Shown: piece by piece, positions 13,191 through 62,210 of the stretch | How positions within the stretch are numbered: the first letter of the stretch is position 1 | Layout: each line of letters opens with the position of its first letter | Virus record (IMG/VR): IMGVR_UViG_3300031857_024892 | Location: 62,001 to 126,000 of that record | Origin: a virus | Strand: one strand, 5' to 3' | DNA: 64,000 nt | Position numbers and translations under genes: made by a program | Notes under the pieces: generated by a model | The model's database searches: none | Seen by the model: the letters and a program-made list of their open reading frames with translations, nothing else | What the model was told of the DNA's origin: nothing

Positions 13191-13793
13191 ATGAACATCA
13201 TCACACGCGTATCCCCCCTCATTAAGGAGTGCGAACTCCGCGCTCCTCCCATCGTCATCCGCGTCAATAAGTTTGATGAGGATGCAGCCAAGGAGTTCAA
13301 TCAGCACATGTCGATCGCCCAGTCATCTGGCCAGAGTGTTATTCCAGTCGTCATTGACAGCTACGGCGGAGAGGTATACTCACTCATGACTATGATCGAT
13401 GCGATCAAGTCATCACGTGTCCCAGTCGCAACCATCGTCGAGGGTAAGGCAATGTCTTGCGGTGCTGTCCTGCTCACTTGCGGAGCACCCGGCATGCGCT
13501 ATGCATCGCCCAATGCTACCATCATGATCCACGAGGTCGCAAGCGGCAATCGTGGCAAGGTCGAGGAGATCAAGGCCGACGCTAAGGAGACAGATCGTCT
13601 CAACGAGAAGATCCTCAAGATCATGGCACAGAACATCGGCAAGGATGAGGATTACTTCCTCGACGAGATCCACACCAAGAAGCACGCTGACTGGTACCTC
13701 GAGCCCGAGGAAGCAAAAGAGATCGGCCTTGTTAACCATGTCAAAGTGCCAGAGATGATGTTAACTGTGGATGTGAAGTACAAGTTTGAGTAG
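13191..13793 (+). CDS. ClpP-like serine protease
   Basis: 200 aa, similar in length to ClpP. Catalytic triad can be placed: Ser89 in GKAMSCGAVLL, His114 in IMIHEV, Asp167 in HADWYLEPEEAKEIGLV. VIDSYGGEVYSLMTMIDAI matches the oxyanion/IDSPGG-type strand. ClpP forms chambered oligomers that degrade proteins fed by a Clp ATPase; no ATPase partner was found here, so it may use a host ClpX/ClpA, or act as a prohead or host-takeover protease (inference). Start after AGGAG. Confidence 0.88.
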   Translation: MNIITRVSPLIKECELRAPPIVIRVNKFDEDAAKEFNQHMSIAQSSGQSVIPVVIDSYGGEVYSLMTMIDAIKSSRVPVATIVEGKAMSCGAVLLTCGAPGMRYASPNATIMIHEVASGNRGKVEEIKADAKETDRLNEKILKIMAQNIGKDEDYFLDEIHTKKHADWYLEPEEAKEIGLVNHVKVPEMMLTVDVKYKFE

Positions 13794-14145
13794 AAGAGCT
13801 GAGATCTTTATAAAGGTTATTGCGTGGCGGATTGTATCCACCACGCTTAGCTTCTTTGTCATCTATCATTTTACAGGTAGCGTGGCGACAACAACGCACG
13901 CACTTGCAATCGGAACAAGCATAGGAATAGTGTCCCAGTGGCTGTTTGAGATGACGTGGGACACGTTTATACGGAGCAGATTGAGACATGCCCTTTCAGG
14001 ACAACAAGGTAGAATTGATCGGTTACTACGGTGGAGACGAGGCACACGCGATGTCAGCGTGGACGAGCACCAGCAGGGATCTGACGGAGGAGAAGCGTGG
14101 AAGGATCCCAACTCTCCTGAAAATGCTGGCCGAGAATGGACATGA
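13786..14145 (+). CDS. DUF2061-like small membrane protein
   Basis: TTG start overlapping the clpP stop. The first ~65 residues fit DUF2061: IKVIAWRIVSTTLSFFVIYH, a TGSV turn, a second membrane segment, then E..WDTFIRSR. Two transmembrane helices are expected. The last ~52 residues overlap the thyX gene in another frame and have no family resemblance, so the C-terminal extension may be non-functional. Function of DUF2061 proteins is unknown. Confidence 0.6.
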   Translation: MSRRAEIFIKVIAWRIVSTTLSFFVIYHFTGSVATTTHALAIGTSIGIVSQWLFEMTWDTFIRSRLRHALSGQQGRIDRLLRWRRGTRDVSVDEHQQGSDGGEAWKDPNSPENAGREWT

Positions 14146-14656
14146 GACACCCTTCGAGAAGTCAAGCCTGCACTTCCTGGTCACTGTCGATGCTGCAACT
14201 CACATCCATCTCCTGAAGCACAGGATCGGTGTCTCGATCAACGGCGAGTCAGCGCGGTACAAGGAACTTCGAGATGACAAGTATTACCTGCCGAAGGATT
14301 GGTCGCTCGAAGAGCAGGCGAAGTACATCGCCTTCATGGAGGACGCACTCATGCGTTACCACGATGCTCTTGAACGCTTCGTCGAGGATGGCATGAGCCG
14401 CAAGCGTGCCAAGGAAAGTGCCCGGTTCTACCTGCCCTACGGCAACCAGATCACGATGGACATCATGTTCAACTGGCGCTCCTTCCACCACTTCCTCGAG
14501 CTGCGGATGAAGCCAGATGCCCAGCGTGAAGTCCGTGAGTTATCAGAGCAGATGCTCCAGCTTGTCCGTGACATTCCTGGTAACCCGTTCAAGCACACGC
14601 TAGAAGCGTTTGGTTATGTTGTAAAACCTAAAGAAATATTCTACCATAGTGTGTGA
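13988..14656 (+). CDS. thyX: Flavin-dependent thymidylate synthase homologue (ThyX copy 1)
   Basis: 222 aa, normal ThyX length. GHETPFEKSSLHFLV matches the family; the signature is K77-H78-R79 followed by SINGESARY, where most ThyX have RHR and one residue less before the Ser. FYLPYGNQITM and the LELRMKPDAQREVREL segment supply the other dUMP/FAD contacts. ThyX makes dTMP from dUMP with FAD and methylene-tetrahydrofolate. The RHR-to-KHR change and the presence of a second ThyX (17421) raise the possibility of a changed reaction. Its start lies inside the DUF2061 reading frame. Confidence 0.88.
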   Translation: MPFQDNKVELIGYYGGDEAHAMSAWTSTSRDLTEEKRGRIPTLLKMLAENGHETPFEKSSLHFLVTVDAATHIHLLKHRIGVSINGESARYKELRDDKYYLPKDWSLEEQAKYIAFMEDALMRYHDALERFVEDGMSRKRAKESARFYLPYGNQITMDIMFNWRSFHHFLELRMKPDAQREVRELSEQMLQLVRDIPGNPFKHTLEAFGYVVKPKEIFYHSV

Positions 14657-15084
14657 ACGCACCTAAGTCACCCTACAACCTGATCCAAGAGACAGTGCAG
14701 TACGATCCATGGCGCGTCCTGGTCGTCTGTATTTTCTGTAATCTAACAAAGCGTGTCGTCGCAGAGCCCTACATGTGGCAGTTCTTCGATCGATGGCCCA
14801 CAGCATCGGCAGCATCCCATGCAGATCCTGCTGAGATCCGTGACATGATCGCTATTCTTGGTCTTGCAGATCGACGAAGCAAGACGCTGGTCAAGCTATC
14901 GCAGGCGTACGTGCAGTGGAACGGGGTTGATGTAAGATCTCTACCAGGCGTGGGTGAGTACGCTGCAGCAGCTTACGACATCTTCTGCCTGCACCGCTGG
15001 GCACAGATCCCAGAGCCCAAGGACGGCGCGTTGAAGAACTACTGGAAGTGGATTAACGGAAAGGAGGAAAGTCAAATTGCCTGA
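14653..15084 (+). CDS. HhH-GPD DNA glycosylase, MBD4-like
   Basis: 143 aa from a GTG overlapping the thyX stop. Pattern of the MBD4/HhH-GPD thymine glycosylase core: DPWRVLVVCIFCNLT, WPTASAASHADPAEI, helix-hairpin-helix RSLPGVGEYAAAAYDIF, then EPKDGALKNYWKWI, whose Asp aligns with the catalytic Asp of MBD4 (HPEDHKLNKYHDWL). It likely removes a mismatched or damaged pyrimidine. Neighbours thyX and an Fpg/Nei glycosylase fit base-excision work on unusual pyrimidines. Short compared with EndoIII (no Fe-S tail). Confidence 0.8.
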   Translation: MNAPKSPYNLIQETVQYDPWRVLVVCIFCNLTKRVVAEPYMWQFFDRWPTASAASHADPAEIRDMIAILGLADRRSKTLVKLSQAYVQWNGVDVRSLPGVGEYAAAAYDIFCLHRWAQIPEPKDGALKNYWKWINGKEESQIA

Positions 15085-15886
15085 AGGACCTGAAGTCAAG
15101 ATTGTATCTGAGTCGCTTGGCCGCGCGTTGCAAGGTCGGGCAATCGTCGGCATCAACTATTTGGGCGGCCGCTACGCGAAGCACGGGCCTCCTGAGGGAC
15201 ACGCAGAAATTTCATCGGAGCTGCCCCAGAATGTGTCTGTCACATCTTGTAAGGGCAAGTTTATATACCTAACACTCCAAAATAATTGGGTAATCTGGAA
15301 CACTCTGGGTATGACGGGTGGCTGGTCAAAGACGCAGCACAAACACAGCAGAGCGCAGTTTCTACTCGACGACGGGACATCTGTCTTCTTCAACGATCCA
15401 CGCAACTTCGGCACGCTGAAGTACGTCCACGGGCTTGATGCACTTCAAGAGAAGTTGGATGAGCTTGGGCCCGACATGCTGGCAGAGGATGTTTCGGACG
15501 ACTTGTTCATCAGACGGATGCGGAAGAAGAATAAGCGTGTGATCACAGAGAGCCTGATGGACCAGAAGGTGATCTGCGGTGTGGGCAACTACCTCAAATC
15601 TGAGAGCCTCTATTTCGCCGGGATCTCCCCTATGCGTCATGTCAACACCATGACAGATGAAGAGCTGTCTCGGCTCAACCAGACGATTAAGGCAGTCATC
15701 CGTGCATCCTACCAGACAGGCGGCGCGACGATCTACACATTCCAGGGGTTCGACGGCGAGAAAGGACAATACAGTCGCCGCTTCGCTGTTTATAATCAAG
15801 ACAAGGATCCTAAAGGGTGGGATGTGAAATCCTTCACCTCACCCGAGGGCCGCACAACATTCTGGGTTCCAGAGGAGCAAACATGA
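15077..15886 (+). CDS. Fpg/Nei-family DNA glycosylase without zinc cysteines
   Basis: 269 aa from TTG with a strong GGAAAGGAGG upstream; the product starts M-PEGPEV, so Pro after Met removal is the catalytic residue with the next Glu. The H2TH region is KVICGVGNYLKSESLY. The C-terminal finger keeps FAVYNQDKDPKGWDV...GRTTFWVPEEQ but lacks all four zinc Cys, so it looks like a zincless finger as in NEIL1 or plant Fpg. It excises oxidised bases. Overlaps both neighbours by 4-8 nt. Confidence 0.9.
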   Translation: MPEGPEVKIVSESLGRALQGRAIVGINYLGGRYAKHGPPEGHAEISSELPQNVSVTSCKGKFIYLTLQNNWVIWNTLGMTGGWSKTQHKHSRAQFLLDDGTSVFFNDPRNFGTLKYVHGLDALQEKLDELGPDMLAEDVSDDLFIRRMRKKNKRVITESLMDQKVICGVGNYLKSESLYFAGISPMRHVNTMTDEELSRLNQTIKAVIRASYQTGGATIYTFQGFDGEKGQYSRRFAVYNQDKDPKGWDVKSFTSPEGRTTFWVPEEQT

Positions 15887-16110: not shown

Positions 16111-16487
16111 CAATGGATAAGCTCGACCAGATGTTCCAGATGCGTAAGGAGTTCATGGCAGCGTTGTCTGCTCATGTCCCTAATGCATACCCACAGCAAC
16201 CGATCGATCTCAGCAGCAAGCAGTCACAGCAGCACTTCAGAGATCTTGCTCTCCGCGGTGTTGAGGAGATCTTCGAGGCGCTCCAGCACTTGAAGAACAC
16301 GAAGCCGCATCGTGTGACTGACATCACAGATCCAGTCGATGTTGAGGCGTTCAAGGAAGAGATGGTCGATGCTTTCAACTTCTTCTTCACGCTTCTAATC
16401 CTGATGGACGTCGATGCTGAAGATCTCTACGAGGTCTTCAAGAAGAAGGATCAGATCATTCACGACCGCATCAAGAACAGGTACTAA
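16107..16487 (+). CDS. MazG-like / dimeric dUTPase-like NTP pyrophosphatase
   Basis: GTG at 16107 overlaps the previous stop; an ATG at 16113 is an alternative. All-alpha NTP pyrophosphatase pattern: RGVEEIFEAL (ExxxE-type) and FKEEMVDAFNFFFTLLILM (EExxD), followed by KKKDQIIHDRIKNRY. Such enzymes hydrolyse dUTP or other non-canonical NTPs to the monophosphate. It lies directly before a second protein with a similar N-terminal domain. Substrate is inferred only from the family; dUTP would feed the ThyX enzymes. Confidence 0.75.
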   Translation: MTMDKLDQMFQMRKEFMAALSAHVPNAYPQQPIDLSSKQSQQHFRDLALRGVEEIFEALQHLKNTKPHRVTDITDPVDVEAFKEEMVDAFNFFFTLLILMDVDAEDLYEVFKKKDQIIHDRIKNRY

Positions 16488-17437
16488 TGGACATCAAGAA
16501 GATACTACAGCGTCAGAAGGAGTTCTCTAATCTCTTCTATGACTCGTCTAACTTTGACGACGACAAGCGTGAGGAGATGACAAAGTCGTTCGCTCTGGCA
16601 CTCCACGCTGAAGTGGCGGATCTCGTCAGCTCGATCAACTTCAAAGATCACCACGCAAATCGACGGACACCGGATCGGGAGAAGATCCTGTACGAGTCGA
16701 TTGACGTGATGAGGTACCTCCTGGCGATCATGAATGTGTGGGGGTATGAAGCTGATGAAGTTGAGACAGCTTTCAACGACAAGGACACCTTCCTGCACAT
16801 GCGTCATCGAGTTGAAAACGCAAAGTGGGACGGTCGTCCTGTACTAATTGTCGATGTCGATGATGTCATCGCACACTTTAGGAAGGATTACTTTGAGTGG
16901 CTTCGAGACAGTCATGACATTGATATTCCTCTTGATTATCCTGAGTACTATGCGTCCTCTCCCCTGAAGGAGCGCGGGATCAATCCAGAGGCGTCGTTCA
17001 AGGATTTCATCAGCGAGCGTCGTCTCCGTAAAATTGAGCCAATCGAAGGTGTCCGTGCAGTTCTAAAAGCAGCCCAAGAGCTAGGCTTCTGGGTGCAGTT
17101 GCTGACTGCTCGTCCTGACCAGAACTTGATCTGTCTCTACGACACCTACCACTGGATCTCTGAGATGGGCGTACCATTTGATGGCCTCGCCTTCAGCGGC
17201 GAGAAGTACAGGTGGATCGTGCAGAGCCAGTTCTACGGACACGTTGCAGCATGCATCGATGACTCACCAAAGCACGCTGCAGAGTACGCAAATCACGGTT
17301 TGCTTGTACTCTCACCTGCATTGTCTTATAATGCATCATTGGCTGGCACTTCTGGTGTCACTCGATACGAAGATCCTGATCAACTACTTCTACAACTAAT
17401 TCAAATCAAAGAGGAAATCAATGCCACAAGACACTAA
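16487..17437 (+). CDS. MazG-like domain fused to a HAD hydrolase
   Basis: 316 aa. Residues 1-110: all-alpha NTP-pyrophosphatase-like (ALALHAEVADLVSSINF; ESIDVMRYLLAIMNVWG). Residues ~118-310: HAD phosphatase with motif I D123-V-D125-D, motif II LLTARPD and motif IV ACIDDSPKHAAEYA. A two-step nucleotide clean-up (NTP to NMP to nucleoside) within one protein is a reasonable inference. TAATG-type overlap with the upstream MazG-like gene and a 17-nt overlap with the second thyX place it in a pyrimidine-nucleotide operon. Confidence 0.8.
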   Translation: MDIKKILQRQKEFSNLFYDSSNFDDDKREEMTKSFALALHAEVADLVSSINFKDHHANRRTPDREKILYESIDVMRYLLAIMNVWGYEADEVETAFNDKDTFLHMRHRVENAKWDGRPVLIVDVDDVIAHFRKDYFEWLRDSHDIDIPLDYPEYYASSPLKERGINPEASFKDFISERRLRKIEPIEGVRAVLKAAQELGFWVQLLTARPDQNLICLYDTYHWISEMGVPFDGLAFSGEKYRWIVQSQFYGHVAACIDDSPKHAAEYANHGLLVLSPALSYNASLAGTSGVTRYEDPDQLLLQLIQIKEEINATRH

Positions 17438-18371
17438 TCTCAAGCCCATCACTCTTCCTATGGCGATCCGTTTCGGCGAGGAGCCAACTACCGAGTTCGT
17501 CAACAGCCTTGATGCACTTAAGCTCGAGCTTGTTGATGCACCAGATCCCAAGTCGATCCGCCAGGCTGTCTACTGCTTCGTTAAGTCGACCTGGGCAGAC
17601 CAGCACGTTCCTTACAAGGACGCAACTGAGGCTGAGCTTAGCAAGACACTTGAGGACGTCTTCGCAGGTCGTGCGCTCCCAGCAGCGATGGAGCTGATCG
17701 GTCTCACCTTCCTCGTGGGTGGCATCGACACGCAGACTGTAACGCATCTCATCCGTCACCGTGCAGGTTCCTTCGCAGCGCAGTGCACCGGTGACCGTTG
17801 GCTTTCACACGAGCGCAGCCTTGTTCCTGGTTCCATCCAGAACAGCCCGGAGTTCTACGCTCGCTGGCAGGCACACGTCCAGGAGGCAAAGCAGCTCTAC
17901 ACGGACATGGTCGACTCCAAGCAGATCAGTCTGATGGATGCTCGTCACGTCCTTCCTAAGTGCCTCGAGACGTTCTACTACATGCGTATGAACATCCGCG
18001 ACGCATTTGGTTTCATCAAGCAACGCCAGGACAAGCAGATCCAGCCTGAGGAGGACAACATGCTTGCAGCGCTCATGGCACGCGAGATCCTTCGCGTCTT
18101 CCCTGAGGCACACGTGGCAATCAACCTCCGTGAGCCTGCCTGGCACTACATCAAGACGTTCCGGAATGGCACTGGTACGAACCTCTACTGGCCCGATGAG
18201 GACAGCGAGAAGCACCTCACCTACCACCCAGACGACACGATCTATCAGGCAACACGTGACGACATGAACGGCACAGGTGGTGGTGTCCCTCACTTCCGGA
18301 AGCTCTGGAACGAGACACTTGCTGAGATTGACACGATCGTCACCAACTACAAGAACACACGGGGCATTTAA
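17421..18371 (+). CDS. ThyX-family protein (copy 2, divergent)
   Basis: 316 aa, longer than ordinary ThyX (about 220-250). The ThyX signature is R112-H-R114 in LIRHRAGSFAAQCTGDRWL, with Cys-Thr-Gly where other family members have the Ser/x before Arg; DARHVLPKCLETFYYMRMN and FIKQRQDKQIQPEEDNMLAA are the family's second and third signatures. The N-terminal ~70 residues and the C-terminal ~80 residues are extra. It may methylate dUMP or carry out a related flavin- and folate-dependent change to a pyrimidine nucleotide. Confidence 0.85.
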   Translation: MPQDTNLKPITLPMAIRFGEEPTTEFVNSLDALKLELVDAPDPKSIRQAVYCFVKSTWADQHVPYKDATEAELSKTLEDVFAGRALPAAMELIGLTFLVGGIDTQTVTHLIRHRAGSFAAQCTGDRWLSHERSLVPGSIQNSPEFYARWQAHVQEAKQLYTDMVDSKQISLMDARHVLPKCLETFYYMRMNIRDAFGFIKQRQDKQIQPEEDNMLAALMAREILRVFPEAHVAINLREPAWHYIKTFRNGTGTNLYWPDEDSEKHLTYHPDDTIYQATRDDMNGTGGGVPHFRKLWNETLAEIDTIVTNYKNTRGI

Positions 18372-25883: not shown

Positions 25884-26864
25884 ATGAAGATACTCATTAC
25901 TGGTCACCGAGGTTTCATTGCATCTAACCTTCCACCTGCATTCGCTGATCTCGATCACGAAGTTGTCGATCCCAGCCAGCTCAGGCTGACACACAAGCTG
26001 CCGACAGGTGAGCACTGCGTCTATCGTAACAGTGAGGATGACTGGGCGCGCGAGATCAAGCGGCTCGGCGTCGATGTAGTTGTCCACAATGCAGCAGCAG
26101 TGGGCACCGATGTCGTCGCGCTCAATCCTAGCGATGCGACGCTGTCCAACGTGACAGGAACCTACAACATCTGCCGCGCTGCTGAGAAAGCACGCGCAGC
26201 CGTCCTCTACCTCGGAACGACAGTCATCTATAACACAGATCTGTATCAGGGCTCCTGGATCGCTGAGCGCTCCTCGCACGGCCCACAGACGCTCTACGGA
26301 TCTCTGAAGCTGGCAGGTGAGTACATCGTCCGTGCACACAGCACGAAGTGGTCGATCGTCCGGCCCCTCTTCTGCTACGGCGGCGTGGGTGACAACAACT
26401 CACTGATCGCGAAGGGGTTCTTCGGCGCTGCACACGGCAAGGAGAAGATCGACATGTTCCTCGATCCCAAGAAGATCAAGGATTACATGCGCGTCGAGGA
26501 TTTCTGCGATGCGGTGGCAACTGTGGTCGATAAGGAGCTCTGGAACGATGACTGGAACGTCGCTGCGGAGACGCCTGAGAACACAGGCAGGATCGTCGAG
26601 ATGATGAGTGAGATCTCGTGCAAGGATCTAAAGGGTGTGGTAAAATGGCACCCAGGAACCGACTACTTGGGTAACCATCGACTAAGCTCACAGAAGTTCA
26701 GGGATGCTTCTGGTTGGACACCAAAGTTCGACCTATATGGTGGCTTGGAAAAGTCGTGGAATGACATCCAGCGTAATCTGGGTTCCACGGATTATAATCC
26801 TCTGCGATATCTGGAAGATGCCAAGAAGCGCGGCATCGACCTCACACAATTCTTCAACCGGTGA
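25884..26864 (+). CDS. NAD-dependent epimerase/dehydratase (SDR, copy 1)
   Basis: 326 aa. Extended SDR: nucleotide-binding ITGHRGFIASNL at the start, HNAAAVGTD, the Tyr-Lys active pair in LYGSLKLAG, and IVRPLFCYGG. Such enzymes change sugar nucleotides (epimerisation, dehydration or reduction). The exact substrate is not visible. Works in the same theme as gene 31362, the cytidylyltransferase at 57608 and the cupin at 58110: sugar-nucleotide synthesis for glycosylating DNA, virion or cell surface. Confidence 0.82.
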   Translation: MKILITGHRGFIASNLPPAFADLDHEVVDPSQLRLTHKLPTGEHCVYRNSEDDWAREIKRLGVDVVVHNAAAVGTDVVALNPSDATLSNVTGTYNICRAAEKARAAVLYLGTTVIYNTDLYQGSWIAERSSHGPQTLYGSLKLAGEYIVRAHSTKWSIVRPLFCYGGVGDNNSLIAKGFFGAAHGKEKIDMFLDPKKIKDYMRVEDFCDAVATVVDKELWNDDWNVAAETPENTGRIVEMMSEISCKDLKGVVKWHPGTDYLGNHRLSSQKFRDASGWTPKFDLYGGLEKSWNDIQRNLGSTDYNPLRYLEDAKKRGIDLTQFFNR

Positions 26865-30435: not shown

Positions 30436-31344
30436 TTGAAGTTCAATCTAAAGACAGTTGTGCTAGAAGGTGTGGATTGCAGCGGCAAGACAACACTGTT
30501 TAGGAGCTTGCATCGTGCAACAGGCTTCAAGTGGAATATCCACGATCGAAGTGCTCTCTCGATGCTCTGCTATGCAGTCATGTACGGAAGAGATGTTGAC
30601 CACTGGCGGCAGCTTCTCTTGGAAGAGATCAGCGATCTGAACAATGTGATCGTTGTGCTCATGCCCCCACTGGCCACCATCAAGGATCGCCTTGCTGAAA
30701 GAGGCGACGAGTTTCAAGATCAAGTGACGATTGAGAAGTTGTACACCATCTTTGAGGATGAGGTTTCACGTCTCAGCGCATACCCTAACGTCTTAGTTTG
30801 CGCGCAATCAAAAGCTTCTAGCGATGACATCGCACGGTGGCTGCTAAACTACGAGCGGCAGACATACAGTCGACTTGCAGAGATGACGCACGATCATGCG
30901 AGGATCAAGCTGTCTGGTGAAGCGCCTTTCCTAAAGATGACGTGGGAAGACACTGACTTCAAGACGCTCAGCACAAAGGCACTCTTCTACGAACCTGAGC
31001 TTGAGTACTACGAAGCAACACGCAAGAAGCTTATTGAAAAGATCCAAGCAGAGCTGGCTGGACAGAATGAGTACGAGATGAAGCAGGATCTCAAGTCGCG
31101 ACGGTTTGTCATGACACAGGATAGTTGCATCTCCTATGCACACTTCATGTATCGTGGCGGCGTGCTTCACGCCAACATCGTGTGCAGATCTTCTGAGGTG
31201 TCGCGTATCTTCCCAAATGACATCCACTTCATCGGTCACATGGGTCAGACAGCCCGACGTGAGCTCGGCCTCACCGTTGAGACACCCGTGAGGTTTAATC
31301 TCACTCTCGACTCAGCACATGTAATCTTTCAACCTACGCATTAA
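30436..31344 (+). CDS. dNMP kinase-like domain fused to a thymidylate-synthase-like domain
   Basis: 302 aa from TTG. Residues 1-~145 are a P-loop kinase of thymidylate-kinase type (LEGVDCSGKTTLF, then HDRSALSMLCYAVMYGRDV). Residues ~190-302 follow the C-terminal half of thymidylate synthase: RRFVMTQDSC231, a Phe/Gly/Leu spacing identical to TS, R251-S252 exactly 20 residues after the Cys, and SAHV near the end. The position of TS Asn177 (Cys+31) is Asp262, the residue found in T4 dCMP hydroxymethylase (C148, D179) and known to favour cytosine. The TS-like part lacks the usual N-terminal ~60 residues. A hydroxymethylase/kinase for dCMP is a guess worth testing. Next genes: epimerase, thymidine kinase, dCMP deaminase. 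Confidence 0.7.
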   Translation: MKFNLKTVVLEGVDCSGKTTLFRSLHRATGFKWNIHDRSALSMLCYAVMYGRDVDHWRQLLLEEISDLNNVIVVLMPPLATIKDRLAERGDEFQDQVTIEKLYTIFEDEVSRLSAYPNVLVCAQSKASSDDIARWLLNYERQTYSRLAEMTHDHARIKLSGEAPFLKMTWEDTDFKTLSTKALFYEPELEYYEATRKKLIEKIQAELAGQNEYEMKQDLKSRRFVMTQDSCISYAHFMYRGGVLHANIVCRSSEVSRIFPNDIHFIGHMGQTARRELGLTVETPVRFNLTLDSAHVIFQPTH

Positions 31345-31361: not shown

Positions 31362-32354
31362 ATGAAGAGAGCATTAGTAACGGGCGGCGCCGGCTTCATT
31401 GGGTCAAATCTGACGCACGCGCTTGTCGATGATGGCTGGACAGTTGACGTAGTAGACGACATGTCGAACGGCCACCTCAACCTTCTTGATAATTTGAGCT
31501 ATCGAGTTTTTCTGCCGGGCATGGCAGAAATCTATGAAGCACAGAAGCAGAGAACTTCGAAAGAAGTTTACGTGCATGAGTGTGACTTTGCACACCCAGT
31601 CATTCTAGACAGAATTGCTCGGAAGCAATACGACGTCGTCTTCCACCAGGCAGCTGTTCCGCAAGTTTCCTACTCTGTCGAGCAGCCTACGAAGACGACA
31701 GACGTCAATCTTCTGAGAAGCATTGAGCTTCTCCATTCTTGCGTCGGCAACGTCGACAAGGTGGTTGTTGCATCATCATCAGCTGTCTATGGTAATACGG
31801 AGACACTGCCGACAACTGAAGAGACGCCACGTAACCCAAGATCTCCATACGGCCTCCAGAAGAGTGCTCTTGAGGATTTCTGTCGACTATTTGGTGAGCT
31901 CTACGATCTAGACACCGTCTGTCTGCGTTATTTCAACGTTTTTGGAGCAGGCCAGTACGGCGACTCACCTTATTCCACAGCAGTGTCTGCATGGTGTGAT
32001 GCAATCAAACACGGACGAACACTTAGATCAGATGGTGACGGATCGCAGTCCCGTGACATGTGTCATGTTGACAATGTTGTAAGTGCCAATATTCTTGCTG
32101 CCAAGACGCCGAACCGCCTCATGGGCAAAGGGTACAACATCTGCTGCGGTGAGCGGACGACAAACCTTGAGATCCTCCAGCACCTCACAGGAGCATTTCC
32201 AACAGTTGAAGTTCGTCACGCTCCCTGGCGTCCAGGTGATGTTAAGCACACACTGGGTGACTGGTCAGCAGCAAATCGTGACTTCGGATACCAACCAATA
32301 GTTAAGTTCTGGGATGGGCTTGAGAAGACGCTCGCCTGGTGGGAGCTCAAGTAA
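31362..32354 (+). CDS. NAD-dependent epimerase/dehydratase (SDR, copy 2)
   Basis: 330 aa. GGAGFIGSNLTHALVDDGW nucleotide-binding start, then FHQAAVPQVSYSVEQP, SSSAVYGNTETLP, active-site Tyr-Lys in SPYGLQKSALEDFC, and LRYFNVFGAGQ. Closest in pattern to UDP-glucose/GalNAc 4-epimerases. TTAGAGGCA before the ATG, as for gene 24611. Ends with TAATG overlap into thymidine kinase. Confidence 0.87.
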   Translation: MKRALVTGGAGFIGSNLTHALVDDGWTVDVVDDMSNGHLNLLDNLSYRVFLPGMAEIYEAQKQRTSKEVYVHECDFAHPVILDRIARKQYDVVFHQAAVPQVSYSVEQPTKTTDVNLLRSIELLHSCVGNVDKVVVASSSAVYGNTETLPTTEETPRNPRSPYGLQKSALEDFCRLFGELYDLDTVCLRYFNVFGAGQYGDSPYSTAVSAWCDAIKHGRTLRSDGDGSQSRDMCHVDNVVSANILAAKTPNRLMGKGYNICCGERTTNLEILQHLTGAFPTVEVRHAPWRPGDVKHTLGDWSAANRDFGYQPIVKFWDGLEKTLAWWELK

Positions 32355-32908
32355 TGCGCATCCCACCAACATTCACTGTCTTCTGTGGGCCTATGATGTC
32401 GTCTAAGACGACACGACTGATCGGCGCGGTCGACCGCTTTCGATATCAGAACCAGCGTGTCCTTGCATTTAAACCAAAGATGGATAGAAGGTATGCAAAA
32501 GAAGAGATCACTACACACAACGGTGGAAAACTTGAAGCTCTCATTGTTAGCACTGGTGATGAGATACTACGCCACGTTGACGTATATGAACCAGACGTTG
32601 TAGCAGTTGACGAAGCTTTCATGATTGACGGCTCTGCAGACGCACTCATTCAGATCTACCGTAGAGGCGTGTCTGTCGTTGTGTCGTCGATCGAGATGTC
32701 TGCCAGCTGCAACTCTTTCCCAGAGATTGAGAAGATCCTTCCCTGGGCGACAAAGGTTGAGAAGTGCACTGCCGTCTGTGTTGTATGCGGCGAGGATGCA
32801 CCGTACACACAGAAGAAGATCAATGACATCGCAGAGATCACAGTTGGGGGTTCTGAGCTCTATGAGCCTCGATGCTGGTCACATCATGCGACCGCGCGCG
32901 AAGCGTGA
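32354..32908 (+). CDS. tdk: Thymidine kinase (TK1 type)
   Basis: 184 aa. The ATG at 32354 overlaps the epimerase stop (TAATG). P-loop FCGPMMSSKTTRLI, DEAFMID (catalytic Glu) and the zinc/lasso region CVVCGEDAPYTQKK ... ITVGGSELYEPRCWSHH define the type II thymidine kinase family. It phosphorylates thymidine, possibly also modified deoxynucleosides, salvaged from host DNA. The second half of the zinc site is CWSHH rather than CxxC. Confidence 0.92.
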   Translation: MRIPPTFTVFCGPMMSSKTTRLIGAVDRFRYQNQRVLAFKPKMDRRYAKEEITTHNGGKLEALIVSTGDEILRHVDVYEPDVVAVDEAFMIDGSADALIQIYRRGVSVVVSSIEMSASCNSFPEIEKILPWATKVEKCTAVCVVCGEDAPYTQKKINDIAEITVGGSELYEPRCWSHHATAREA

Positions 32909-33767: not shown

Positions 33768-34178
33768 ATGCGTCCAGGCTGGGATGAAGTGTGGATGAAC
33801 ATCGCACGTGAAGTATCACGCAGGTCAGCAGACGACAAGTACAAAGTTGGAACTGTGATAGTCACTGGAGACAACACACAAGTGCTGTCGCTAGGATACA
33901 ACGGCGACCACGCAGGTGGCCCAAATTGCAGAGAGTCGAGTGACCCTGGCGAGTCAGGTTTTATCCATGCCGAGATGAACGCGCTGATCAAGCTTGACTA
34001 CAATAACCTAAAGCGACGTGTTATGTACGTTACGTTGTCGCCCTGTAAGATGTGCGCTAAAGCAATCATCAATGCAGGTATCAACGAGCTCGTGTACGGC
34101 GAAGATTATAGAGATCTCAGCGGTATTGACATTCTCACAGGCGCTGGGATAAAAGTTAGAAAAATAACTCAAACTTAG
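33768..34178 (+). CDS. dcd: dCMP deaminase
   Basis: 136 aa. Zinc cytidine/deoxycytidylate deaminase: GYNGDHAG, HAEMNALIKL (H67-A-E69) and LSPCKMCAKAIINAG. It makes dUMP from dCMP, feeding the ThyX enzymes. Starts 2 nt after the DHH gene (AGAGATG). Confidence 0.92.
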   Translation: MRPGWDEVWMNIAREVSRRSADDKYKVGTVIVTGDNTQVLSLGYNGDHAGGPNCRESSDPGESGFIHAEMNALIKLDYNNLKRRVMYVTLSPCKMCAKAIINAGINELVYGEDYRDLSGIDILTGAGIKVRKITQT

Positions 34179-43515: not shown

Positions 43516-45111
43516 ATGGAAGAGACAGACAAGTTAGTCGTCTTTGATGCAGCTGCTCGTGAGAAGCTCCTCGCGGGTGTCAATACTTTGGCCGATGCTG
43601 TCCGAGTGACGATGGGCCCACGAGGTCGCAACGTCCTGATCGAGCAGCGCGGTCAACACCCGATCGTCACTAAGGACGGCGTCACTGTTGCGAAGTCGAT
43701 CAATCTCCGCGACAAGTTGCAGAACTTGGGCGCCCAGATGATCAAGGAGGCAGCGTCCCGTTCGGCTGATGAAGCAGGAGATGGGACAACCACAGCAACT
43801 GTCCTCACGCAGGCGATCTTCAGCGAAGGCCTAAAGCTTGTTCTAGCAGGCTACCCATCGACTGACATCAAGGCGGGTATCGACCAAGCAGTCGAGCAGA
43901 TCATCAGTAAGATTGACCAGATCGCTGTGCCTGCGGGATCACCAGAGGTACTGCGTCGTGTTGCAGTCATCTCAGCCAACGGCGAAGAGAGCCTGGGCGA
44001 GCTGATTGAGAATGCCATCAGGACAGTGGGTGAGGACGGTGTCGTCACAGTCGAGGAAGCAAAGGGTTACAACAGCAGCTTGACTGTCGTCGATGGCACT
44101 CGCATTGACCGCGGATACACGTCTCCCTACTTCGTCACCGATCAAGATCGGATGGTGTGTGAGATGGAGAAGCCTGCTGTGCTCCTCCTGAATAGGCGGA
44201 TTGAGACGATCAAGGACATTGTGGGCCTCCTCGAGAAGAGCCTGTCCAACAAGCGCCCACTCCTCATCATCGCAGACGACATCGACGGCGAAGCAATGCA
44301 GACACTCGTCCTTAACAGAGTGCGTGGTGCATTGAGCGTTTGTGCCATCAGAGCTCCTGGGGCTGGCGCAGGTCGATATGATCAGATGCAGGATCTTGCT
44401 GTCCTGCTCGGCACTCGTGTCTTCTCTGCTGCTGATGCTGAGGATCTGTCAAAGGTGCAACTCACAGAGTTAGGCACATGCAACAAGGCGCTGATCGGGC
44501 GCACCGAGACAGTTCTAGTAGGCGCCAATGCTGACAGAGATCGGGTAGGTGAACGCCTCGACGAGATCCGGAAGCAGTATGCAGAGGCGATCGATGAGGG
44601 TGAGCGGCTGCAGACAAAGCAGCGTCTTGCCCGCCTATCAGGTGGCGTTGCCATCCTCCGTGTTGGCGGTGCCACCGAGGCGGAGCTTAAGGAACGTAAG
44701 GATCGTGCTGACGACGCACTGCACGCTGTGCAAGCTGCCATGAAGGAGGGTGTCGTCCCCGGCGGTGGCACAACACTCGTCAGAGCAGCCAACGATGTCC
44801 CGCTTCCTGCTGGTGACTTCACACCTGTTCAGGCGGGCTTTCAGGTTGTCAAGACAGCATGCCGTGCACCGTTCAGGCAGATCGTCACAAATAGCGGTGG
44901 AACACCCGAGATTGTGCTCAACCACTTGAACACGTTAAGCAGCACACACGTCTACGATGCCTTCCACGGCACTTATGGAGAGATGCTCGAGCTTGGGATC
45001 GTTGATCCTGCGCGGGTCGTCAAGTGTGCTCTGAGAAATGCCGCCTCTGCAGCAGGCATGATGCTCACTGTAGGATGCGCTCTCGTTGAGGATGAAGCGC
45101 CTGCAACGTGA
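43516..45111 (+). CDS. groEL: GroEL-like chaperonin
   Basis: 531 aa, near the usual 540-550. Family blocks: TMGPRGRNVLIEQ, TKDGVTVAKSI, DEAGDGTTTATVL (ATP site), ANGEESLGELIENAI, DGVVTVEEAKG, ADDIDGEAMQTLV, DDALHAVQAAMKEGVVPGGG with the catalytic Asp. The C-terminus (EDEAPAT) lacks the Gly-Gly-Met tail of bacterial GroEL. No GroES or gp31-like gene is seen nearby, so it may use a host or distant co-chaperonin. Likely helps fold virion proteins. Confidence 0.95.
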   Translation: MEETDKLVVFDAAAREKLLAGVNTLADAVRVTMGPRGRNVLIEQRGQHPIVTKDGVTVAKSINLRDKLQNLGAQMIKEAASRSADEAGDGTTTATVLTQAIFSEGLKLVLAGYPSTDIKAGIDQAVEQIISKIDQIAVPAGSPEVLRRVAVISANGEESLGELIENAIRTVGEDGVVTVEEAKGYNSSLTVVDGTRIDRGYTSPYFVTDQDRMVCEMEKPAVLLLNRRIETIKDIVGLLEKSLSNKRPLLIIADDIDGEAMQTLVLNRVRGALSVCAIRAPGAGAGRYDQMQDLAVLLGTRVFSAADAEDLSKVQLTELGTCNKALIGRTETVLVGANADRDRVGERLDEIRKQYAEAIDEGERLQTKQRLARLSGGVAILRVGGATEAELKERKDRADDALHAVQAAMKEGVVPGGGTTLVRAANDVPLPAGDFTPVQAGFQVVKTACRAPFRQIVTNSGGTPEIVLNHLNTLSSTHVYDAFHGTYGEMLELGIVDPARVVKCALRNAASAAGMMLTVGCALVEDEAPAT

Positions 45112-61696: not shown

Positions 61697-62210
61697 GAGA
61701 ATTGAAGATCAGCCTGCACCCACAGGTGATGGAACACCTGTCTGGGATCTTGTCGTCTCTGATATGAAGGAGAGAGACAACTTGGGTAGGCAGCGTTATG
61801 GCACGCCGCTTCGAACCTGGAACGGTCGTGATGCGCTTGTCGATGCCTACCAGGAGATCCTCGACCTTGCTGTCTACGTCCGCCAGGAGATTGAGGAGCG
61901 GCGGTCGATCCAGCAGATCTGCGAGCACGTGGCTCTCATTCCAGGCGCTGAAGATTGCACATCCCAGAATGTCATAGAGACGCTGGGAGAGATTGAAGAA
62001 CGTGTCCACATGCTTGAAGCATCCAACAAGGATCTGAGGAAGCGCCTGACAGCACTGCAGAACGAGTCGTCCTACGACGCAGGATTTAGGCGTGGATGCC
62101 AGGCGACATTGGAGCTAGTGGAGCGAGTGCAAGGAAAGCACGTCAGCAACGAGCTACTTGAGAGCGCGATGAACCTACGGAGCAACCACAGTGGACGCTC
62201 GGAAGGATGA
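61689..62210 (+). CDS. MazG-like NTP pyrophosphohydrolase
   Basis: 173 aa from GTG 61689 (GGAGAG nearby). VVSDMKERDNLGRQRYGTPL then NGRDALVDAYQEILDLAVYV follows the phage MazG-like/dATP-dGTP diphosphohydrolase pattern, with an E..xD-type helix. The C-terminal half is a coiled-coil-like helix pair. Third MazG-type domain in the window. Confidence 0.65.
   Translation: MTKRIEDQPAPTGDGTPVWDLVVSDMKERDNLGRQRYGTPLRTWNGRDALVDAYQEILDLAVYVRQEIEERRSIQQICEHVALIPGAEDCTSQNVIETLGEIEERVHMLEASNKDLRKRLTALQNESSYDAGFRRGCQATLELVERVQGKHVSNELLESAMNLRSNHSGRSEG

Follow-up and report, generated by a model that had tools for sequence, protein, structure and literature searches.

Enzymes that act on dCMP and the kinases beside them

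Cytosine modification guards phage DNA against host restriction. The enzyme that modifies the monophosphate is normally a separate protein from the kinase that then activates the product. In phage T4 they are gp42 and gp1; gp42 has a complete folate-binding half, and its Cys148, Arg168 and Asp171 occupy invariant columns of thymidylate synthase (TS). Asp179 of gp42, 31 residues beyond Cys148, lies at the position of TS Asn177, where an Asp favours dCMP (PMC6400193; PMC8670742), and the signature of dCMP hydroxymethylases comprises Asp145, three residues before the Cys (Cys-3), plus Ser94/Tyr96 (PMC6400193). TS mutants carrying N177D are dCMP methylases that make 5-methyl-dCMP (PMC8670742); the substitution alone yields a methylase and not a hydroxymethylase.

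The TS superfamily also includes AfhB, the 5-hydroxy-dCMP synthase of Mosigvirus-type phages (PDB 9iqu, 9iqc), a separate dCMP hydroxylase of 235-238 aa that has a full N-terminal half, Asp at the Asn177 position, an SRR motif, a SAHV(F/I) end and a short C-terminus, with a thymidylate kinase (TMK)-like kinase encoded two genes on. The kinase has this position relative to the gene for the Mosigvirus 5-hydroxy-dCMP synthase, a flavin-linked dCMP hydroxylase described recently (PMC13390438), and to the TS-like gene of Acinetobacter phage Abraxas, around which there are glycosylation genes.

Asp-type TS genes occur in Gordonia, Mycobacterium, Streptomyces, Microbacterium, Serratia, Pseudomonas and Yersinia phages, in operons that hold a thymidylate kinase, MazG/dUTPase, a small uncharacterised protein, the TS, often a dCMP deaminase, and DNA polymerase I. 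The small protein (PHROG 13667 in actinophages, 'pyrimidine hmase' of the Serbin type) resembles TS weakly (P=1e-3). A scan of the collection gave 52 loci of this partner family (L060-L111), 39 of them with a P-loop kinase upstream, and in all 44 with a findable downstream TS that enzyme has Asp at position 177 and Arg at Cys-3 (for example L061:3737-4666). Because Cys-3 is Arg and not Asp, these TS may be dCMP methylases or other enzymes rather than hydroxymethylases. By its motifs the partner family looks like a degenerate TS paralogue, and its proteins may act as partner subunits of an enzyme that modifies dCMP; C-x-Q, YR-S/T-TE and K-F-x-A-D motifs are seen across the PHROG 13667 and Serbin51-like members (L060-L111; L021:3514-4431; L033:3075-3968; L035:2994-3803).

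A kinase and a TS-like domain in one chain

The window analysed here is a stretch of 64,000 nucleotides within a 163,948-base IMG/VR virus record (IMGVR_UViG_3300031857_024892, positions 62,001 to 126,000), whose terminase, portal and tail sheath genes, read by eye, suggest a large contractile-tailed phage. In many other phages kinase genes adjoin Asp-type TS genes, so the gene described here unites functions that elsewhere are often encoded side by side; here kinase and TS-like domain lie in one chain and not in separate neighbouring genes.

30436..31344, + strand: fusion gene, dNMP-kinase-like plus compact TS-like domain; 302 aa, TTG start
30436..30840, + strand: kinase domain, residues 1-135, a P-loop kinase of YorR / thymidylate kinase type
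30466..30495, + strand: P-loop E11-GVDCSGKT-T20, invariant in the alignment of relatives

The TTG start lies 1 base past the stop of DNA polymerase III alpha. Four relatives, full-length and 100, 98, 72 and 68-69% identical to the fusion, retain its start codon, length and neighbours, with the gene order of the window: fusion, epimerase, thymidine kinase, DHH protein, dCMP deaminase. Values of dN/dS are about 0-0.18 in all three parts wherever computable, and since synonymous change far exceeds amino-acid change, all parts are under purifying selection. The reading frame is thereby confirmed as a real gene in which a kinase and a TS-superfamily domain share one protein. There are only four distinct relatives, so invariance among them carries little weight for residues outside the TS motifs. 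Close relatives of the fusion were absent from cultured phages (tblastn at 0.01) and from the cellular genomes scanned, a literature search for a kinase-TS fusion found none, and in the collections searched the fusion is restricted to this phage group.

The N-terminal half, earlier taken to be thymidylate-kinase-like, does match PHROG 761 'thymidylate kinase' (E=5e-13) and, by sequence search of the PDB, YorR of the B. subtilis phage SPbeta (2axp/3kb2, E=1.3e-5); YorR 3kb2 is also its top Foldseek match, although YorR is without a TS-like domain. Kinship with YorR and TMK sets this half apart from the T4 system. The marks of YorR-type kinases (the E-G-x-D-x-x-G-K-T P-loop, the D-R motif and the LID arginines) are all present, and D37-R38 and R85/R89, like the P-loop, are invariant across the relatives. 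Most likely, this half works as a nucleoside monophosphate kinase.

The nucleotide side of a thymidylate-synthase-like domain

A Pfam search of the fusion gave no TS match (PF00303), and none came from searching PDB sequences with either the single sequence or the profile of close relatives. For the C-terminal piece the best family is PHROG 160 'thymidylate synthase' (E=6e-4), and profile-profile comparison by hhalign gives P=1.5e-8 against 47 phage TS sequences and P=4e-7 against 11; none of 150 column-shuffled query profiles reached the observed TS score (z 12-13). The homology to TS proposed in the preliminary description is significant, beyond chance.

31075..31341, + strand: TS-like core, residues 214-302
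31096..31104, + strand: S221-R222-R223, equivalent of the TS Arg126'/Arg127' phosphate-binding pair
31126..31128, + strand: Cys231, catalytic Cys equivalent (E. coli C146, T4 C148)
31186..31191, + strand: Arg251-Ser252, equivalent of TS Arg166-Ser167 (phosphate binding)
31219..31221, + strand: Asp262, at the TS Asn177 position (T4 Asp179)
31318..31320, + strand: His295, equivalent of TS His207

The motifs run in the order S221-R222-R223, C231, R251-S252, E254, D262 and H295, and the catalytic Cys, RS and His motifs of the TS superfamily are all present. Cys231, Arg240, Arg251, Ser252, Asp262, Ser293 and His295 are invariant in an alignment of 39 sequences, 35 of which are TS sequences of other phages, and Cys231, Arg251-Ser252, Asp262 and His295 are unchanged in the relatives that are 68-72% identical. 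The SRR triplet, which the preliminary description had not mentioned, is invariant within the group and aligns with S122-R123-R124 of T4 and with the SRR of AfhB; because it matches the phosphate-binding arginines, more than a C-terminal stub of TS has been retained. In TS the opposite subunit supplies this arginine pair, which binds the phosphate held in the other active site (T4 Arg123/124; PMC6400193), and a dimer would therefore be expected here.

The spacing of these motifs had been described as exactly that of TS. From the Cys onward this is so, with Arg251 at +20 and Asp262 at +31, the latter gap being that of gp42; upstream it is not, as SRR stands 8 residues before the Cys and not about 20-22. 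With T4 the fusion further has in common the RS at +20, the SRR pair, the dCMP-type Asp (in P-N-D, where T4 has R-N-D) and the need for a downstream kinase, whereas T4 uses two proteins and its enzyme has both the complete folate half and the Asp at Cys-3, neither of which the fusion domain possesses. Cys-3 is Gln228 in all relatives, with Asp or Glu at Cys-2; the gp42-type Asp (or Glu) at Cys-3 is absent from the fusion and from every relative, and neither the Ser94/Tyr96 motif nor the folate-binding N-terminal half can be recognised in the fusion, where Y185-x-P is a resemblance only. Of the proposal that one protein makes and phosphorylates a C5-modified dCMP, the part that survives is that both halves would serve a dCMP-type nucleotide; hydroxymethylation of the T4 type does not, given the Gln at Cys-3 and the largely missing folate regions. 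Asp262 tells the base and not the product, because the same Asp is found in N177D dCMP methylases and in AfhB. The fusion probably handles dCMP or a modified dCMP destined for phage DNA.

By profile the closest enzymes are the Asp-type TS of PHROG 160 (Gordonia Amok gp48, Mycobacterium FF47 gp44, Serratia Serbin), which keep the Cys, RS and Asp, end soon after the His motif and have TMK and dCMP deaminase genes in the operon; unlike the fusion domain they are full-length and unfused, with 21-23 residues from the SRR-equivalent to the Cys and Arg at Cys-3. The small partner proteins also resemble the domain (P=7.8e-6, deep profile) and share its Cys, RST-E and F-x-x-D, the last as F-P-A-D against F-P-N-D in the fusion. 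They differ in being stand-alone and mostly 240-375 aa, with no kinase fusion seen; wherever a TS can be found downstream of them, it is adjacent and of the Asp type. Placing the fusion domain as a plain member of that family was considered and rejected: the match is real, but TS proper matches better and the TS partner is lacking.

Predicted structure and the shortened folate side

Structure prediction, one of the checks first suggested, gave TS-superfamily matches from models of poor to medium confidence. An AlphaFold model built with close relatives only was poor (pLDDT 58) and matched TS weakly. Adding TS segments raised the domain model to pLDDT 65, with pTM 0.58, with the best core blocks at 75-87, and in Foldseek searches of the PDB the TS superfamily dominates its matches (probability about 1.0, best E 6e-4) for what is a medium-confidence model with TS in its alignment. 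The two best matches (both E 6e-4) are structures of AfhB from phage HY126, one with dCMP and one with FAD, followed by the CMP hydroxymethylase MilA and then many TS. As the TS sequences in the 39-sequence model were aligned to the query, which biases it toward a TS-like result, the comparison supports the TS fold without being independent proof of it.

30841..31074, + strand: residues 136-213, variable at 136-164, conserved at 165-192 (W170 E171, Y185-E-P-E), helix at about 189-207; probable remnant of the TS N-terminal half (alignment, AF2 helix, tentative Y-x-P match)

The missing N-terminal half, found puzzling at first, can in part be explained. Invariant residues number 17 of 28 in 165-192 against 10 of 29 in 136-164, and the TS-like domain probably starts near residue 165, with W170-E171, Y185-x-P, the helix and SRR kept and cofactor-side insertions removed. 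In a global profile alignment with AfhB, itself weak (P 6e-4), Y185-E-P-E falls on the 'YGPR' motif of TS, with the helix and SRR coming next; this would mean a TS core minus its cofactor-side insertions rather than a random truncation. The folate side (the N-terminal part, the insert before SRR and the SRR-Cys loop) is gone or shortened, and its folate-binding region is not recognisable. A separate TS N-terminal half was sought among the genome's 1,408 ORFs of 50 aa or more and not found. The equivalents of TS Tyr209 and His147 are replaced by Ile297 and Ile232.

Genome context and the supply of dTMP

31362..32354, + strand: NAD-dependent nucleotide-sugar epimerase/dehydratase, next gene (PF01370 E=1.8e-50; same neighbour in all four relatives)
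32339..32908, + strand: probable thymidine kinase, same operon (read by eye; conserved neighbour)
33768..34178, + strand: dCMP deaminase-like gene, same operon (read by eye; conserved neighbour)
13988..14656, + strand: canonical ThyX (flavin-dependent TS), likely dTMP source (PF02511 E=1.7e-36)
17421..18371, + strand: second, divergent ThyX-like gene, 316 aa (PF02511 E=4e-20; conserved in G002, G003 and G005)

Besides a canonical ThyX gene, the genome and its relatives carry a divergent one, and no full ThyA (PF00303) is present in the genome, where alignment A4 and PHROG 160 retrieve the fusion only. With two ThyX genes and no full ThyA, the fusion would be dispensable for making dTMP by the ordinary route. 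The divergent ThyX-like protein has a degenerate ThyX motif (RHRAGSFAAQCTGDRW) and its gene stands beside canonical ThyX in related contigs.

Nucleotide-sugar epimerase-like genes (25884-26864 and 31362-32354) lie on either side of the stretch with the polymerase and the fusion, and the genome encodes a GT4 glycosyltransferase (L027:117-1157); glycosylation of DNA or of the virion is a possible use for them. Directly behind the canonical ThyX are a short HhH-GPD DNA glycosylase-like gene (14653-15084) and an Fpg/Nei-like gene (15077-15886). A dUTPase_2-type pyrophosphatase domain is fused to an NT5C 5'-nucleotidase domain at 16487-17437, a phage-encoded GroEL-like chaperonin lies at 43516-45111, and a ClpP-like protease gene, read by eye, at 13191-13793.

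What the fusion may do

The leading explanation, held tentatively and with slightly less than even confidence, is that the protein is a dNMP kinase, for (modified) dCMP, carrying its own compact TS-fold module that would recognise dCMP. The C-terminal domain would keep the nucleotide side of the TS fold, most of the folate side having been lost and folate chemistry presumably with it; Arg222/223 and Arg251-Ser252 would grip the 5' phosphate, Asp262 would read the cytosine and Cys231 would be placed to attack C6, in a TS-type dimer. The module would bind dCMP or 5-modified dCMP and supply or select it for the fused kinase, which would turn it into the diphosphate for phage DNA synthesis, dTMP coming from ThyX. 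Consistent with this are the TS homology and a Foldseek list led by dCMP-bound AfhB, TS-site residues invariant in 39 sequences alongside SRR and kinase motifs invariant in the group, purifying selection on all parts, the separate kinase genes that accompany Asp-type TS genes in other phages, and a genome with two ThyX and no full TS. Against it, pure binding gives no obvious need for an invariant Cys nucleophile, the conserved Y185-x-P and W170-E171 might be remnants of the catalytic Tyr94 and Glu58 (a weak indication), and the case draws on four distinct relatives and a TS-seeded model where the close-relative model reached only pLDDT 58.

Next in rank, though unlikely, is a bifunctional dCMP C5-hydroxylase and kinase, AfhB-like and using flavin rather than folate, which would pass 5-hydroxy-dCMP to its kinase with the epimerase aiding DNA glycosylation. 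AfhB, with dCMP and with FAD, gives the two top fold matches and is the best PDB sequence match of alignment A6, which consists mostly of other phage TS; the SAHV(F/I) motif and short C-terminus are shared; Mosigvirus and Abraxas have the order TS-like gene, one gene, TMK-like kinase, Abraxas with sugar-nucleotide or glycosyltransferase genes near; and here the epimerase directly follows the fusion in all relatives, with the GT4 gene elsewhere in the genome. AfhB, however, has a full-length TS N-terminal half and the fusion domain, at about 140-165 aa, is far shorter, other uses exist for epimerases and glycosyltransferases, and closer sequence kinship to AfhB than to other TS was not seen, the window-only profile giving P 1.5e-8 to other TS against P 3e-4 to an AfhB family profile that is small. 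A further reading, about as unlikely, is a single-chain enzyme with a minimal TS fold that would modify dCMP at C5 by a folate-free route, either flavin-linked or cofactor-poor, phosphorylate its own product and feed a glycosylated cytosine pathway in a large phage that gets its dTMP from ThyX.

Improbable, and behind the hydroxylase, is a decaying TS domain that the kinase would retain for structure or dimerisation alone: the domain is shortened and has Ile at the Tyr209 and His147 positions, but its ligand-side residues are invariant and dN/dS is low at 66-75% amino-acid identity. Marginally less probable again is a folate-dependent dCMP hydroxymethylase (or methylase) fused to a kinase, gp42 and gp1 combined. 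The T4-like Cys231/Asp262 spacing, with an Asp that selects dCMP, and the fused kinase speak for it; the Gln at Cys-3, where hydroxymethylation requires Asp145, the lack of a recognisable folate half or PF00303 match, the SRR-Cys loop of 8 rather than about 20 residues and the want of a separately encoded missing half among the genome ORFs speak against it. Least probable is that the domain is half of a heteromeric enzyme that would depend on a further phage protein, such as the second ThyX-like one, an idea to which the match with the small TS-like partner proteins, the retrieval of one partner-protein operon from IMG/VR by the window-domain motif and the two ThyX genes conserved in the phage group lend something, but for which the genome has no Asp-type TS partner, the fusion being its only TS and no such gene adjoining it.

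Implications

The fused pair is direct genetic evidence of coupling between the modification and kinase steps. The reduced TS domain could reveal the minimum TS fold needed for dCMP recognition, and the fusion helps to place the widespread, uncharacterised family of TS-like partner proteins found near dCMP-type TS genes.
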